Below the pieces are notes generated by a model that worked only from the letters and a program-made list of their open reading frames with translations, was not told where the DNA came from and did not search any database. From contig JAEUOS010000027.1 of the NCBI GenBank assembly GCA_016790695.1, forward strand, positions 1 to 64,000: DNA of 64,000 nucleotides, in the 5' to 3' direction. The translations under genes were made by a program, and so were the position numbers. The stretch's first letter is position 1, and every line of letters starts with the position of its first letter. Shown piece after piece: positions 34,541 to 42,123 of the stretch. The stretch comes from Burkholderiales bacterium (lineage in GTDB: Bacteria; Pseudomonadota; Gammaproteobacteria; Burkholderiales; JAEUOS01).

Positions 34541-35293
34541 TCAGAGCCGCATCAACTCCTGCACCGCGGCGACGTCGTGGCCGCGCAGATAGCGCCCATG
34601 CAGATAGGAGGACTGCACCGCGACCAGCCGCAGCATCGTCGCCGCGCTGCGCCGATGGATCGCCCAGATGCCCGCGCCGCTCATGCCCGGCAGCTCCGGC
34701 GTATGGATCGGCGTGCCGTCGGCACGGTTGGCCACGCGCCCGTAGACGTACAGGTGCTCGCCCGCGTCGCCCTCCTCGGCATGGCGGCGGGTGAACAGCG
34801 TGAGCCGCCGCGCTGCGAGCCAGCCACGCTCGAACCGCGCCAGCGCGGCCGGATAGCCCGACACCAGCGCGCCGGACCGCGGCGGCGCATGCCGGCGCCG
34901 GCGTCGCAGCGCATGCGGCGGCATCAGCGCCGGCCGGCGTCCGCGCAGGATCTGCGCCGCTCCCGGCACCGCGCCGATGTCCAGGAGCGCGATGTCGGCG
35001 CGGCCGCTGCGCGCGACCCGGGCGCCGGCAAGCGGTATCAGGTCGTGCCCGGTCGCCGCCGGGACCAGCAGGTTGCCCAGGCGCACGCCGCCATCGATCA
35101 CGTGCGCCGCGGTCAGGAGCAGCGCGCGCCGGCCCGCAGCCAGCAGCGTCGCCGTGCCCAGCACGGCTGCGCGCTGGTAGTCGTGCACGACGAGCGGCAG
35201 CGTGCACGCGGCGGCCGCCGCGACGGCGGCCGCCTCGGGCAGGTCGCCGTCGAGGCAGACCCGCACCTCGTCCAGCGCATCCCAGCGCAGCAC
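34541..35293 (-). CDS. Trypsin-like (S1-fold) serine peptidase, cytoplasmic
   Basis: A 250-residue protein starting at GTG. The three catalytic motifs of the chymotrypsin fold are present: TAAHV with His64, ADIALLDI with Asp100, and PGMSGAGIWA with Ser205 in a G-x-S-G-x-G context; GTATLLAAGRRALLL before the His matches the first beta-barrel. There is no signal peptide or membrane helix, unlike nearly all DegP/S1 proteins, so it probably acts in the cytoplasm. It begins 10 nt after the AAA+ ATPase stop, so the two are almost surely co-translated. The family has no name I can give; substrates are unknown. The C-terminal third is Arg-rich. Confidence 0.8.
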   Translation of the reverse strand: MLRWDALDEVRVCLDGDLPEAAAVAAAAACTLPLVVHDYQRAAVLGTATLLAAGRRALLLTAAHVIDGGVRLGNLLVPAATGHDLIPLAGARVARSGRADIALLDIGAVPGAAQILRGRRPALMPPHALRRRRRHAPPRSGALVSGYPAALARFERGWLAARRLTLFTRRHAEEGDAGEHLYVYGRVANRADGTPIHTPELPGMSGAGIWAIHRRSAATMLRLVAVQSSYLHGRYLRGHDVAAVQELMRL

Positions 35294-36548: not shown

Positions 36549-37517
36549 ATGCGCGGATGCAAGACTCTCCTGTTCATCGGCGCCCTGCTGCTGGCGCCGG
36601 CCGGCGCAGGCGCCCAGCCGTTCGCCGGCAAGACCATTCGCCTGGTCGTGCCGTTTCCCGCCGGCGGGCCGACCGACATCGTCGCGCGCCCGCTGGCGCA
36701 ACTGCTCGGCGAGGGCCTGGGCGCCGCGGTGGTCGTCGACAACCGCGGCGGCGCCGGCGGCTCGGTCGGCGCCGACGCGGTCGCGAAGGCCAGCCCCGAC
36801 GGCCTGACGCTGCTCATGGCCACCGTCGGCACCCACGCGATCAACGTGTCGCTGTATCGCAAGCTGCCGTATGACCCGGTGCGCGATTTCACGCCCGTCG
36901 CGCTGGTGGCGGCGGCGCCGGTGGCGATCGTCGTGCACCCGGCGACCGCGGCCGATTCGCTCGCCGCCCTGGTCGCGCTGGCGCGACGGTCGCCGGGCAA
37001 GATCGCCTACGGCACGGCAGGCAACGGCACGCCGGGACACCTCACCGGCGTGATGTTCCGCGCCGCCGCCGGGATCGACCTCTCGCACATCCCCTACAAG
37101 GGCAGCGCGCCAGCCGTCACCGATCTCCTGGGCGGCCAGATCCAGATGATGTTCGATCCGCTGCAGTCGGTGCTCCCGCACATCGCGGCGGGCAAGCTGC
37201 GCGCCCTCGCCGTGTCCGGGGCGGCGCGCTCGGCGGTCCTGCCCGCGCTGCCCACGGTTGCCGAATCCGGCTATCCCGGCTTCGAAACCACCGCGTGGTG
37301 GGGCGTGTTCGCGCCGGCGAACCTGCCGCCGCCGCTGCTGGCGCCGCTGACCGCGGAGATCGAGAAGATCGTCCAGGGCCAGGCGTTCCGCGACCGCCTT
37401 TCCCCCCAGGGCGTCGCGCCCCGCCTGTTGAGCGGCGGCGCCTTTGCCGAGTTCCAGCGCAGCGAAACCGCCAAGTGGGGCAAGGCGGTGCGCGACGCCG
37501 GCGCCACCATCGATTGA
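36549..37517 (+). CDS. Bug family tripartite tricarboxylate receptor (periplasmic)
   Basis: A 322-residue secreted solute receptor. Signal peptide MRGCKTLLFIGALLLAPAGA ends in GAGA. The TctC/Bug signature appears: IRLVVPFPAGGPTDIVARPL, RGGAGGSVGADAVAKASPDG, HIPYKGSAPAVTDLLGGQIQ, and RALAVSGAARSAVLPALPT. No TctA or TctB gene is adjacent, the usual state for these receptors in Burkholderiales. An in-frame ATG at 36510 exists but would prefix 13 non-signal residues. Its position 14 nt before the aconitase X genes suggests it serves the substrate of that pathway. Confidence 0.94.
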   Translation: MRGCKTLLFIGALLLAPAGAGAQPFAGKTIRLVVPFPAGGPTDIVARPLAQLLGEGLGAAVVVDNRGGAGGSVGADAVAKASPDGLTLLMATVGTHAINVSLYRKLPYDPVRDFTPVALVAAAPVAIVVHPATAADSLAALVALARRSPGKIAYGTAGNGTPGHLTGVMFRAAAGIDLSHIPYKGSAPAVTDLLGGQIQMMFDPLQSVLPHIAAGKLRALAVSGAARSAVLPALPTVAESGYPGFETTAWWGVFAPANLPPPLLAPLTAEIEKIVQGQAFRDRLSPQGVAPRLLSGGAFAEFQRSETAKWGKAVRDAGATID

Positions 37518-37531
37518 GAGTGCCGAACAGC

Positions 37532-38764
37532 ATGAGACTGACAGAAGAAGAGCAGGACATGGCCGCCGGCGGTGCCGGACCGGTGGCCCAGGAGGCGATC
37601 CGCCACCAGATCATGGTCGGGGATTTCTTCGGCGCGGCCGATTTCGTGCCGGTCACCCAGGCGCACATCATGGCCGACACCGAAAGCCTGGGCGAGGCGG
37701 GCGTCGCCTGGCTCGAGTCGCTCGCGGCCGCGCGCGACGGCCGGCGCCGCGTGCGCGTCCCGACCATCACCGACCCGCGCGGCACGGACTTCGCCAAGGC
37801 GGCCTTCCTCGGCCACACGCGCACCATGCTGAGCCTGGAGGAGCGCGCGATCGCCGCGTTCGTCAAGCTCGGGGTGATGATGACCGACACCTGCATCAAC
37901 TACCAGACGGTGCAGCCGGCGACGCGCAACGAGCATGTGGCCTTCGGCGATACCGGCGTGGTCATCTACTCCAATTCGGTGTGCGGCGCGCGCTCGAACT
38001 TCGAGGGAGGCCCCTCGGCACTCGCCGCCGGGCTCACCGGCCGCACGCCGCGCTACGGCTTCCATCTTGCGGAACGCCGTCGCGCCACCCTGCACGTGCA
38101 GGTGGTCGACACCCCGCGCACCCTCAACGAATGGGGCGCGCTCGGCGGGGTGATCGGCAGGCTCGCCGGCAACTACTGGGCGGTGCCGGTGATCGAGGGC
38201 ATCGAGGGCGCGCCGGGATCGGACGCCCTCAAGCATTTCGGCGCGGCGATGGCGAGCTTCGGCTCGACCGCGCTGTTCCACATCGTCGGCCTCACCCCCG
38301 AGGCGCCGCGCCTGGGCGACGTCGCCGATGCCGCGCTGCCCAGCCACCGCGTCGGCCGCGCCGAATTCGCGGCCCTGCAGCAGTCGTTCCGGCGGGACGA
38401 CCGCGTCGACGTCGTCGTGTTCTCGGCACCGCAGTTGAGCCTGCTCGAACTGCGCGACCTGGCCGGCCTGTGCGACGGCAAGCGCCTGACCGTGCCGATG
38501 CTCGCCGTGACCAGCCCGCAGGTCAAGCCCGACTGCGACCGCATGGGCTACACCCGCACCATCGAGGAGGCCGGCGGCACGGTGCTCTCGGGCATGTGCT
38601 TCTACCAGTCCTACGCGCGCGAGATCGCCGAGGCGCGCGGCTGGAAGCGCCTCGCCACCAACAGCGCGAAGATGGTCAACATCCTCGGCGGCTACGGCTA
38701 CCAGCCGATGCTCGCCTCGATGGAAGAATGCGTCAGTGCCGCGCAGACCGGGAGGCTGCCATGA
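37532..38764 (+). CDS. Aconitase X large (catalytic) subunit
   Basis: A 410-residue DUF521/AcnX catalytic subunit. MRLTEEEQDMAAGGAGPVAQ is the usual opening, and IPTITDPRGTDFAKA-like (here VPTITDPRGTDFAKA), CINYQTVQP, YSNSVCGARSNFEGG and TNSAKMVNILGGYG are signature stretches, including cysteines expected to bind an iron-sulfur cluster. AcnX enzymes act as dehydratases: known members take cis-3-hydroxy-L-proline (LhpI) or mevalonate 5-phosphate. The two-subunit layout, ending in an ATGA overlap with the small subunit, is typical of bacteria. Which substrate applies here cannot be told from sequence. Confidence 0.92.
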   Translation: MRLTEEEQDMAAGGAGPVAQEAIRHQIMVGDFFGAADFVPVTQAHIMADTESLGEAGVAWLESLAAARDGRRRVRVPTITDPRGTDFAKAAFLGHTRTMLSLEERAIAAFVKLGVMMTDTCINYQTVQPATRNEHVAFGDTGVVIYSNSVCGARSNFEGGPSALAAGLTGRTPRYGFHLAERRRATLHVQVVDTPRTLNEWGALGGVIGRLAGNYWAVPVIEGIEGAPGSDALKHFGAAMASFGSTALFHIVGLTPEAPRLGDVADAALPSHRVGRAEFAALQQSFRRDDRVDVVVFSAPQLSLLELRDLAGLCDGKRLTVPMLAVTSPQVKPDCDRMGYTRTIEEAGGTVLSGMCFYQSYAREIAEARGWKRLATNSAKMVNILGGYGYQPMLASMEECVSAAQTGRLP

Positions 38765-39177
38765 GCGTCGCGCAGAAGGTGTTCGTCGCCCGCCACGCCA
38801 TGGGGCGCACGGTGCGCGGAACCGCGATGGTGGCCAGCGATGGATTTTCGGCCCGCTACGACCTCGACCGCATCGCCGGCGTGTTCTCGCGGCCGACCCA
38901 CAAGCTGGCCGGCCGCCGCTACGTCGACCAGGTGCTGGTCCTCGACACGGCCAAGGGCGGCGTCGCCAGCGCCTGGATGCTGCGCGAAATGCGCACCCGC
39001 GGCGTGGTGCCCCTGGCGATCGTGTTCAACACCGTCAATCCGATCCTGGCGCAGGGCGCCGCGTTCGGCGACATCCCGATGCTGGCCGGGTTCGACCTCG
39101 ACATCACCGCCGCGGTCGCCGACGGCGCTCTGGTCGAGGTCGACCCGCCGGCGCGCGCGCTGCGCATCGTGGGCTGA
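38761..39177 (+). CDS. Aconitase X small (swivel) subunit
   Basis: A 138-residue DUF126 swivel domain. RHAMGRTVRGTAMVASDGFS, VLVLDTAKGGVASAWMLREM and FNTVNPILAQGAAFGDIPML are family motifs. It completes the active site with the large subunit, and the genes overlap by 4 nt. The alpha/beta hydrolase begins 26 nt later in the same direction. Confidence 0.93.
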   Translation: MSVAQKVFVARHAMGRTVRGTAMVASDGFSARYDLDRIAGVFSRPTHKLAGRRYVDQVLVLDTAKGGVASAWMLREMRTRGVVPLAIVFNTVNPILAQGAAFGDIPMLAGFDLDITAAVADGALVEVDPPARALRIVG

Positions 39178-39203
39178 CCGGGCGAGCCAGCGCCGCCGCC
39201 GCA

Positions 39204-40040
39204 ATGCTCCGCGATGCCCTGTCCTGGCCGGAGGTGGCGCGGCTGGACCGCCTTGCCATGCGCCGTGCGACCGCCTGCGGGCCCGGGGTGGAGATGGTCT
39301 GGCGGCGCTGGGGCAGCGGACCGCCGGCGGTGCTGCTGCATGGCGGCAGCGGCGCCTGGTCGCACTGGATCCGCAACATCGACGCGCTCGCGCCGCAGCG
39401 CACGCTGTGGGTGGCCGACCTGCCCGGCTGCGGCGAGTCGGGCCTGCCGGCCGGTGCCTACGATGCCGATTCCATCGTCGAGCATGTCGCCGCCGGCATT
39501 GCCGCGTGCTGCGCCGGCACACCGGTCGACCTGATCGGCTTCTCGTTCGGGTCGCTGGTCTCCGGACTCCTGGCAGCCACGCATCCGGAACTGGTCGGCC
39601 GCATGATCCTGGTGGCGCCGCCGGCCCTCGGCCTCTCGCGCGTCCCGCTGGAACTGGTCTCGCTCGGCCGCGCCATGCCGCCGGACGAACGCGAAGCCGC
39701 GGTGCGACACAACCTGCAGCAACTGATGCTCCATCGCGCCGCGGCCATCGACGACCTCGCTGTGGCGATCCACGCCACCAATTTCGAGCGCGACCGGCTG
39801 CGCATGCGCCGGCTCTCGCGCACCGGCATCATGCAGGCGCTGCAACGGCGCTGGCGCTGCCCGGTGCACGCGATCTGGGGCCGCGAGGACGTGCTCGCTC
39901 GCCACGAACTCGACCGCCTGCCCGCCGTGCTGCAGCACTGCGACCTGCGCAGCCTGCAACTGATCGACGACGCCGGGCACTGGGTGCAGTACGAGCAGCC
40001 GACGGCGTTCAACGACGCGGTGCGCGCGGTGCTGCCCTGA
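39204..40040 (+). CDS. Alpha/beta hydrolase
   Basis: A 278-residue hydrolase. HGG at 46-48 gives the oxyanion hole, GFSFGS contains nucleophile Ser114, GREDVLARHEL gives the acid (Asp229), and DAGHWVQYEQP the base (His259). The triad is complete, and the arrangement is like MhpC-type C-C hydrolases or esterases. The start (ATG 39204) is 26 nt after the AcnX small subunit, so it probably acts in the same pathway. The exact substrate is unknown. Confidence 0.9.
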   Translation: MLRDALSWPEVARLDRLAMRRATACGPGVEMVWRRWGSGPPAVLLHGGSGAWSHWIRNIDALAPQRTLWVADLPGCGESGLPAGAYDADSIVEHVAAGIAACCAGTPVDLIGFSFGSLVSGLLAATHPELVGRMILVAPPALGLSRVPLELVSLGRAMPPDEREAAVRHNLQQLMLHRAAAIDDLAVAIHATNFERDRLRMRRLSRTGIMQALQRRWRCPVHAIWGREDVLARHELDRLPAVLQHCDLRSLQLIDDAGHWVQYEQPTAFNDAVRAVLP

Positions 40041-40052
40041 GGTCCGGCCGGA

Positions 40053-41042
40053 CTACGGGTCCGCGCGAATCCCCAGGTCCGTCGCCAGGCCCTTCCAGCG
40101 CACCAGGTCTTCGCGCACGAAGCGCGCGAACGCTTCCGGCCCCAGGCCGGTGGGCTCCAGCCCCTGGGCGCGCAGGTTCTCGGCGACGTCGGGCGTCGCA
40201 AGCACCTGGGCAACGTCGGCCGCGACCTTCTCGACAATCGCGCGCGGCGTGCCCGCCGGCGCGAGAATGCCGAACCAGCCGCTGACGTCGAGCCGCGGGA
40301 TGCCCAGCTCGCCGAACGTGGGGACCTCGGGCAGCACGCGCGAACGCATGGCGCCGACCAGCGCGAGCGCGCGCACGCGGCCCGAGCGCAGATGGGGCAT
40401 CGCGGTACCGATCGAATTGAACGAGGTCGACACCTGGCCGCCGATGAGGTCGGTGATCTGCGCGGCTTCGCCCTTGTACGGCACGTGGATCAGATCGATG
40501 CCGGCGCCGCGCTTCAATGCCTCGCCGTAGATGTGGAACGACGACGCATTGCCGAACGAGGCGTAGCTGAGCGGCGCGCCGGCATCCCGGGCGCCGCGCG
40601 CCGCGGTGACCAGGTCCGCCAGGGTCCGCCAGGGCGCGTCGGCACGCACCACGAGCACCACCTCGGAGCGGATCAGCTGGACCACGGGCACGAAGTCCCT
40701 GTCCGGATCCCACGGCACCCTGGCCATCAGCGCGGGCGCCTGCACGAACGAGGTGAAGGTCGACAGCAGGGTGTGGCCGTCGGGCGCGGCGCGCGCCGCC
40801 AGCTCGGTGCCGATGACGGTGGTGGCGCCGGGCCGGTTCTCCACCACCACGGCGTGTCCCCAGCGCTGCGCGAGCCTTTCGGCGAGCAGGCGGGTGACGC
40901 GGTCGGGGCTGCCGCCGGTCGGACTGGGCAAGATCATCCGCACCGGCCGCGAGGGAAACGTCTGCGCGGCGCCGTCGGCGGTGGCGAGCGCGGCCGTCAG
41001 TGCGATGGCGATTGCGGCGATTCCGGCAGCGGGCTTAGGCAT
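40053..41042 (-). CDS. Bug family tripartite tricarboxylate receptor (periplasmic), second copy
   Basis: A 329-residue receptor with signal peptide MPKPAAGIAAIAIALTAALA ending in DGAA. ILPSPTGGSPDRVTRLLAER, NRPGATTVIGTELAARAAPD, HVPYKGEAAQITDLIGGQVS and RALALVGAMRSRVLPEVPTF are the Bug signature blocks. It is clearly distinct from the receptor at 36549. It overlaps the flavin-dependent oxidoreductase by 8 nt, so it likely feeds that enzyme's substrate. No TctAB is present. Confidence 0.93.
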   Translation of the reverse strand: MPKPAAGIAAIAIALTAALATADGAAQTFPSRPVRMILPSPTGGSPDRVTRLLAERLAQRWGHAVVVENRPGATTVIGTELAARAAPDGHTLLSTFTSFVQAPALMARVPWDPDRDFVPVVQLIRSEVVLVVRADAPWRTLADLVTAARGARDAGAPLSYASFGNASSFHIYGEALKRGAGIDLIHVPYKGEAAQITDLIGGQVSTSFNSIGTAMPHLRSGRVRALALVGAMRSRVLPEVPTFGELGIPRLDVSGWFGILAPAGTPRAIVEKVAADVAQVLATPDVAENLRAQGLEPTGLGPEAFARFVREDLVRWKGLATDLGIRADP

Positions 41043-42123
41043 GGTCGTGGGCTCTCGAAGGGGTGTCGGCCGCCGCGTGGTCGCGAAGCCAGGGCATGAC
41101 CCGATCCGCGTACAGTTCCGCCGACCGCAAGGACACGTCGAACGGCAGGTCGCCGAACGCGAAGCGGGTCAGGATGCAGTTGACGCCGGTCTGCCGGATC
41201 TGCGCGGCCAATTCCTCGCGCACCGCCTCCGGCGTTCCGGCAAGCGCGCGACCGGCCTGGACCAGTTCGTCCCAGGTGGCGGGGAAGTAGGCGCCGGGCT
41301 TCGCGTCGTTGCGCACCCACAGGTGCATGAAGCTCGCATGCCAGCGCGCATAGGCGCGCCGCGCCAGATCGTTCGCCTCCGCCGCGCTGGGCGCGATCAC
41401 CAGATGGCGCGTGGTGCCCAGGGCGGGCAGCTGCGAATCCGCATGGCCGGCAGCGCGCCACTGCGCGCGATAGGCGTCGGTCATGACGCGCACCTGCTGC
41501 AGCGGCGCGTTGCTGACCACGTTGCAGCGATTGGCCACGCACCAGGGCACGCCCTCGGGACTGCCGATCCCGTACCACAGCGGCGGATGCGGCGCCTGCA
41601 GCGGTCCCAGCGTGATCGGCACCCGCGCGAAGGTGTGGAAGCGCCCCGCGAAACTCAGCTCGCGCCCGGCGCTCCGCGCCGCCGCCAGGGCCTGCATCAC
41701 GATCGCGAAGCCCTCGAGATAGCGCGCCTGCGCTTCCCCAGGATCGATGCCGTAGTAGCCGAGCTCGAACGGCGAGATGCCGCGGCCGACGCCGAGCTGC
41801 AGGCGGCCGCGGCTCATGTGATCGAGCATGCAGATCTCTTCGGCCAGGCGCAGCGGGTGATACAGCGCCAGCGTGTACACCAGCGGCCCGAAGCGGATGC
41901 GGCGCGTGCGCTGCGCCACCGCCGAATGGAACACCGACGGCGAGGGCGCCATGCCCAGCGGTGTGGCGTGGTGCTCGGCGGTCAGGTAGTAGTCGATGCC
42001 GAGGCGGTCGTAGGCCTCGGCCAGCCGCAGGCGGTTCTCGTAGAACTCGGCCAGCGGCGCGCCGCTGTCGTCGAGGTGGTCGAAAACGCCGAATCGCAGG
42101 TTGTCGGACACGTGCGCACGCAA
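41035..42123 (-). CDS. LLM class flavin-dependent oxidoreductase (bacterial luciferase-like)
   Basis: A 362-residue TIM-barrel monooxygenase. MRAHVSDNLRFGVFDHLD, YLTAEHHATPLGMAPSPSVF, RIRFGPLVYTLALYHPLRLA, and DHMSRGRLQLGVGRGISPFE are hallmarks of the FMN-dependent luciferase-like group that uses FMNH2 and oxygen. The substrate is unknown; no flavin reductase is in the window. The Bug receptor downstream overlaps it by 8 nt, making a transport-plus-oxidation pair. Confidence 0.92.
   Translation of the reverse strand: MRAHVSDNLRFGVFDHLDDSGAPLAEFYENRLRLAEAYDRLGIDYYLTAEHHATPLGMAPSPSVFHSAVAQRTRRIRFGPLVYTLALYHPLRLAEEICMLDHMSRGRLQLGVGRGISPFELGYYGIDPGEAQARYLEGFAIVMQALAAARSAGRELSFAGRFHTFARVPITLGPLQAPHPPLWYGIGSPEGVPWCVANRCNVVSNAPLQQVRVMTDAYRAQWRAAGHADSQLPALGTTRHLVIAPSAAEANDLARRAYARWHASFMHLWVRNDAKPGAYFPATWDELVQAGRALAGTPEAVREELAAQIRQTGVNCILTRFAFGDLPFDVSLRSAELYADRVMPWLRDHAAADTPSRAHDHA

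Follow-up and report, generated by a model that had tools for sequence, protein, structure and literature searches.

What does the aconitase X (AcnX) encoded in the 64,000-nucleotide stretch of Burkholderiales DNA analysed here (contig JAEUOS010000027.1, positions 1 to 64,000; hereafter the window) convert, and do the genes beside it serve the same pathway? The enzyme is encoded within a run of four genes on the forward strand, in which a Bug/TctC-type periplasmic solute receptor with a signal peptide (36549..37517; PF03401, E=1.5e-67) is followed by the large, catalytic subunit of AcnX (AcnXL, 37532..38764; PF04412, E=1.2e-111, 374 bits), the small, swivel subunit (AcnXS, 38761..39177; PF01989, E=2.7e-22, 79 bits) and an alpha/beta hydrolase of the MhpC/BphD/PcaD-like superfamily (39204..40040; PF12697, E=3e-20, below all curated NCBIfam cut-offs), with successive gaps of 14, -4 and 26 nt. 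The coordinates and spacing of this unit, given before in a preliminary description of the sequence, were reproduced exactly, and the families agree by Pfam. The suggestion made there, that this AcnX stands outside both known functional groups of the family and that a new substrate is plausible, is borne out by the tree, the diagnostic residues, the curated cut-off and the genome content; given that the enzyme falls into neither group by any of these, a new substrate or a new reaction is likely. It is tentatively suggested that Bug and AcnX together would take up and convert a small anionic acid as one module, with an organosulfonate as the leading candidate for this acid, the reaction itself being predicted from residues and gene neighbourhood. 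The window comes from a metagenome-assembled genome (5.49 Mb, 228 contigs, completeness about 91%) whose relatives are Burkholderiales.

Membership of the Aconitase X superfamily is evident from the PF04412 and PF01989 matches and from the fold, the predicted large subunit (pLDDT 90.6) having its best structural match in Thermococcus AcnX (7cnr, TM 0.86/0.92). Since the nearest fold is that of AcnX itself, the change sits in the active site and not in the fold. In a tree of 148 aligned large subunits, drawn from order-wide matches, 80 named relatives, further genomes and plasmid records, the window protein belongs to a monophyletic clade of 112 large subunits of heterodimeric AcnX (support 1.0; hereafter the clade), which divides into the window's own group, with 95 sequences that share 54-100% identity with the window protein, and a sister group of 17 sequences at 42-46% identity. 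The next branch outside the clade is the window genome's own second AcnX copy, and the characterised hydroxyproline enzyme, the hydroxyproline-cluster genes and the Thermococcus mevalonate-phosphate enzyme are found elsewhere in the tree. The bacterial AcnX subclasses IIc-IIf have been described as heterodimeric, as carrying the landmark residues of neither known enzyme and with no function given (Watanabe et al. 2021, PMC8184944). The members of the clade are likewise bacterial heterodimers without the landmark residues of either enzyme, and the clade presumably corresponds to one of these subclasses.

In the large subunits of the clade, numbered as published for TkAcnX (PMC8184944), Cys110, Cys342 and Lys361 are kept, and in every complete member Glu129 is replaced by Asp, Ser130 by Thr, Ser131 by Gly, Cys283 by Ala or Gly and Tyr365 by Ile or Thr. 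The resulting site pattern, Cys-Asp-Thr-Gly-(Ala/Gly)-Cys-Lys-(Ile/Thr), is present in all complete clade members and in no sequence outside the clade among the 148 aligned. What the window enzyme retains is the core of a metal site, consisting of two cysteines, an acid and a lysine (Cys121, Cys356, Asp140 and Lys380). The small subunits were aligned by profile; a phmmer search with the small subunit alone returned mostly spurious pentatricopeptide matches. Aligned in this way to TkAcnX-S, AF0055 and AtAcnX, the window small subunit has Gly67 at the position of the catalytic serine (Ser62/Ser70) and, by profile alignment to the solved structures, Arg32 at the pocket position Leu27/Trp35. All 109 clade small subunits carry the motif KGG, where the 11 from outside the clade all have KGS; the motif RYD is found in 102 of the 109 versus none of the 11. 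For the known AcnX substrates the chemistry is the dehydration of a beta-hydroxy acid (PMC8184944). With the serine that abstracts the C2 proton in characterised AcnX gone and an arginine gained in the pocket, it is probable that a second anionic group is bound and that the chemistry is altered, that is, that the AcnX of the clade acts on a small substrate with two anionic groups in a reaction other than the standard dehydration.

The link between Bug and AcnX is real and conserved, and Bug is the conserved partner of the enzyme. Directly upstream of AcnX and on the same strand, a Bug gene is present at 48 of the 85 loci of the window's group that have at least 1 kb of upstream sequence, and the receptors found at this place in many relatives are 59-74% identical to the window Bug. 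What is conserved is the order Bug-AcnXL-AcnXS, to which a gene for a GntR-type regulator is often added; other loci have alternative carriers, namely an ACS-type MFS transporter, a TRAP system or other permeases. The window genome contains at least 150 Bug (TctC) genes, whereas the TctA permeases above the search threshold number only 5; with so many receptors, it is the recurrence in relatives, and not the window by itself, that carries the linkage of Bug to AcnX. The receptor had been called an orphan, which is right locally, the unit having neither TctA nor TctB, although the genome does carry the five TctA permeases.

The gene neighbours of AcnX in relatives point to small organosulfonates, at the level of sulfoacetate, sulfolactate and isethionate, as the most likely substrate class. 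In Polynucleobacter (L108, L113, L121, L122 and L127) the AcnX unit lies inside an organosulfonate cluster, in which a sulfolactate-dehydrogenase-like gene, two SuyAB-like genes and Xsc (1070 bits, cut-off 676) precede Bug-AcnXL-AcnXS and a three-gene SoeABC-type molybdopterin complex, Pta, an IclR regulator, a second Bug and SauS follow it; SuyAB and SoeABC are here named from gene order and family, not from curated cut-offs. A molybdopterin complex of this type, followed by Bug-Bug-AcnX, is found at L106, and the order Xsc-Bug-AcnX at L116. In a genus of the gammaproteobacterial class (by GTDB), SauS and then an acyl-CoA ligase are encoded a few kb from AcnX, the SauS of L137 reaching 749 bits for a cut-off of 600 and the copy at L138 being 79% identical. 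A ComDE-like pair, of the sulfopyruvate/phosphonopyruvate decarboxylase kind, stands beside AcnX together with a flavoprotein of the GMC family, to which IseJ belongs, at L081, L088, L109, L115, L130, L132 and L133, in at least six genera. A sulfonate marker is present at 19 of the 110 clade loci, compared with none of 20 control regions of 19 kb drawn at random from genomes that carry the clade. A membrane-bound flavin isethionate dehydrogenase has been described (PMC6453916), and in T. muris the putative importers of sulfolactate include TTT and TRAP transporters (PMC10507020). The literature yielded no AcnX function other than the two already described, and none of the papers found on sulfonates or on the TTT context deals with AcnX.

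A nearly self-contained plasmid island of Pseudorhizobium NT-26/NT-25 (L132/L156) comprises the ThDP decarboxylase pair, the GMC oxidase, a TRAP carrier, a SulP transporter and two AcnX copies, as well as malate synthase G, GlcG, GlcDEF, an acetate-CoA ligase and an aldehyde dehydrogenase. The island is flanked by transposases and apparently mobile, and its two AcnX copies have an identical small-subunit accession. Given that no known desulfonating enzyme is annotated in the island, AcnX becomes a candidate for this step. Bug-AcnXL-AcnXS may be regarded as a small plug-in catabolic module, in which the secreted Bug would capture a small anionic acid and deliver it to an unlinked TctAB permease of the genome, presumably one that includes one of the five TctA proteins, and the AcnX heterodimer would convert the acid at a putative iron-sulfur or iron centre held by the four residues of the retained core. 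The scheme is clearest in NT-26, where, with the enzymes assigned by family, the GMC flavin dehydrogenase and the sulfopyruvate-decarboxylase-like enzyme would lead to sulfoacetaldehyde and the aldehyde dehydrogenase from there to sulfoacetate; AcnX might then, at a guess, release the sulfonate group, turning sulfoacetate into glycolate and sulfite, and GlcDEF and malate synthase G would consume the glycolate. This proposal would employ nearly all the enzymes of the island. That the clade consists of enzymes which cleave the C-S bond of a small acid with a sulfonate group and so release sulfite, for instance in the conversion of sulfoacetate to glycolate, is nevertheless a speculative and rather improbable claim; if true, it would provide an oxygen-independent desulfonation that replaces Xsc where Xsc is lacking, as in the NT-26 island and in the window's species.

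In a sample of 300 genomes of the order (Fisher test, kinship ignored), SauS above its cut-off was found in 17 of 18 sister-clade genomes versus 8 of 283 others, and Xsc in 15 of 18 versus 19 of 283. Several observations weigh against an organosulfonate as the substrate. In the window's own group neither marker is significant (Xsc 3/10, p=0.09; SauS 2/10, p=0.2), in a count that left out a further genome of the same group (G206, locus L142), which has Xsc and no SauS. A search of the window genome gave no match to Xsc or SauS; the physical linkage to organosulfonate genes was found in relatives. Furthermore, the ComDE-like pair lies under the curated sulfopyruvate cut-offs, the GMC oxidase is assigned by family, and many loci consist of Bug-AcnX alone, with nothing else common nearby. 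Most of the sulfonate-linked loci come from few lineages, so that the locus counts, including the 19 of 110, overstate the number of independent events; finally, no enzyme with an aconitase fold is known to us to cleave a C-S bond by hydrolysis. On its contig C211 the window genome does have a homologue, 72% identical, of the SoeA-type protein of the putative sulfite-oxidising molybdopterin complex, SoeA being a name given by domain order and not by a curated cut-off. On contig C155 (L209) of the same genome, a sulfopyruvate-decarboxylase-alpha-like gene is followed by an MFS transporter and a Bug receptor, with no AcnX.

Could the enzyme instead have one of the two activities already known? 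That the window AcnX is a cis-3-hydroxyproline (C3LHyp) dehydratase of the LhpI type is very improbable: its match to the LhpI model NF051439 is weak, at 182 bits far under the cut-off of 700, and the equivalents of Asp203, Ser70, Thr72, Trp35 and Tyr534 are all replaced. The preliminary description had remarked that the other hydroxyproline genes are absent and had pointed to the phylogeny of the large subunit as a check. The absence holds for the window, a genome-wide search of the roughly 91% complete assembly found no Pro_racemase-family gene, and in the tree the large subunit lies outside the LhpI/C3LHyp clade and apart from the archaeal mevalonate type, so that a place in the LhpI clade combined with hydroxyproline genes elsewhere in the genome, which would have spoken against a new substrate, is not what was found. 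As a positive control, seven AcnX genes in the C3LHyp-type group have a homologue of 4-Hyp epimerase or T3LHyp dehydratase as a neighbour; no clade locus does. Tree, score, residues, genome content and neighbours together led to the rejection of this type. No better a fit is a mevalonate-5-phosphate dehydratase of type IIb, which can hardly be the correct assignment: the closest solved structure is indeed TkAcnX, but Cys283 (the third cluster cysteine, Ala or Gly across the clade), Tyr365, the catalytic Ser62 and the residues of the phosphate loop have not been kept, and a genome-wide search of the same assembly found no mevalonate kinase. The mevalonate type was rejected on the third cysteine, the lost serine and the missing kinase.

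More weight must be given to the possible, if lesser, alternative that the AcnX of the clade is an ordinary dehydratase or hydratase whose substrate, a hydroxy-dicarboxylate without sulfur that resembles tartrate, malate or citramalate, enters by way of Bug, TRAP or MFS carriers. Arg32 would then bind the second carboxylate and another residue would replace the serine base; glycolate oxidase and malate synthase would be linked to AcnX through glyoxylate/C4 metabolism, and the islands with sulfonate genes would be there by coincidence. Such an enzyme is consistent with the beta-hydroxy-acid dehydration of known AcnX (PMC8184944), with the carboxylate carriers of several families that are paired with the module (Bug, ACS-type MFS, TRAP and other permeases), with the presence of GlcDEF and/or GlcB beside AcnX at L088, L090, L110 and L132, and with the lack of Xsc and SauS in the window genome, but it leaves unexplained the Xsc, SauS, SuyAB-like, SoeABC-like and TSUP neighbours as well as the co-occurrence of SauS with the sister clade. 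The absence, in all clade members, of the serine base on which the dehydration mechanism relies also counts against it. It is unlikely that Bug, AcnX and the hydrolase constitute one new pathway, in which the hydrolase would act on an ester, lactone or C-C bond, freeing or opening it either ahead of the AcnX reaction or following it. The hydrolase gene is on the same strand, separated by 26 nt, and is probably co-transcribed here, and the second AcnX operon of the genome (contig C227; L002/L040), in which Bug, a nitrilase and a MarR-like gene precede AcnXL and AcnXS, also ends with an alpha/beta hydrolase; its large subunit is 45% identical to that of the window, and it adjoins a D-2-hydroxyacid-dehydrogenase-like gene. 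However, the kinship of these hydrolases is remote, at 29% identity within an alignment of 121 residues, and tblastn with the window hydrolase over some 130 AcnX loci, among them L054 of the same genus, found no homologue. The view that the hydrolase is part of the pathway and a constant neighbour of AcnX did not survive this comparison; as no homologue accompanies AcnX elsewhere, it is treated as a local passenger, and a passenger not conserved with AcnX is what it looks like. It is a curious coincidence, all the same, that both AcnX operons of this genome should end with a hydrolase gene.

Convergent with the hydrolase gene and outside the conserved unit lies a second Bug gene on the reverse strand (40053..41042; PF03401, E=2.8e-68), which is overlapped by the gene of a luciferase-like (LLM) flavin oxidoreductase on the same strand (41035..42123; PF00296, E=1.5e-48). 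Neither is conserved at AcnX loci, the oxidoreductase having a single weak match elsewhere, and both were rejected as parts of the pathway. Between positions 34541 and 44640 of the window, the AcnX region, this second Bug-LLM pair, an EamA transporter gene and a cytochrome P450-like gene are enclosed by housekeeping genes (coaD and an rsmD-like methyltransferase gene at one end, M16 peptidase genes and ftsY at the opposite one), and the region looks as if it were an inserted block. Among the relatives, type I sulfatase genes occur near AcnX at L042, L045, L083, L102, L130, L115 and L129, and at L115 a formylglycine-generating-enzyme-like gene is directly upstream of AcnX. A ClcB-like chloride channel gene adjoins AcnX at L088, L090, L109 and L111, in the Burkholderia group and Herbaspirillum; it might suggest dehalogenation with chloride export, but this signal is confined to few loci.

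Only two activities are known for AcnX, and four bacterial two-subunit subclasses are without a function. One such clade is now delimited, having its own residue signature and being tied by neighbourhood to uptake receptors and to organosulfonate pathways, which gives a short and concrete list of substrates for assays: a testable substrate class, with a modest chance of new chemistry. If the organosulfonate reading is true, the clade represents a new enzyme in a widespread sulfur and carbon pathway of soil and freshwater bacteria; if it is false, the clade still points to a third AcnX activity.

As regards known systems, SuyAB ((R)-sulfolactate sulfo-lyase) and Xsc (sulfoacetaldehyde acetyltransferase) are organosulfonate pathway enzymes that stand beside clade AcnX in Polynucleobacter and are compared as neighbours, not as enzymes of the same activity; their folds are unrelated to that of AcnX. 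To TkAcnX of type IIb (7cnr/7cns) the likeness is one of architecture, with separate large and small subunits, TM scores of 0.86-0.92 and a common Cys110, Cys342 and Lys361, whereas the clade differs in the large subunit at Cys283 (Ala/Gly), Glu129 (Asp), Ser130 (Thr), Ser131 (Gly) and Tyr365 (Ile/Thr) and in the small subunit at Ser62 (Gly) and Leu27 (Arg), and the window genome is without mevalonate kinase. With the C3LHyp-type AcnX the clade shares superfamily and fold, and two of three cluster cysteines are kept in position, but the clade is separate in the tree, without the C3LHyp-binding residues and without hydroxyproline gene neighbours. Type IIa of AcnX also has two cluster cysteines only (PMC8184944). 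With the subclasses IIc-IIf the clade agrees in being bacterial, heterodimeric and without the landmark residues of the known enzymes.

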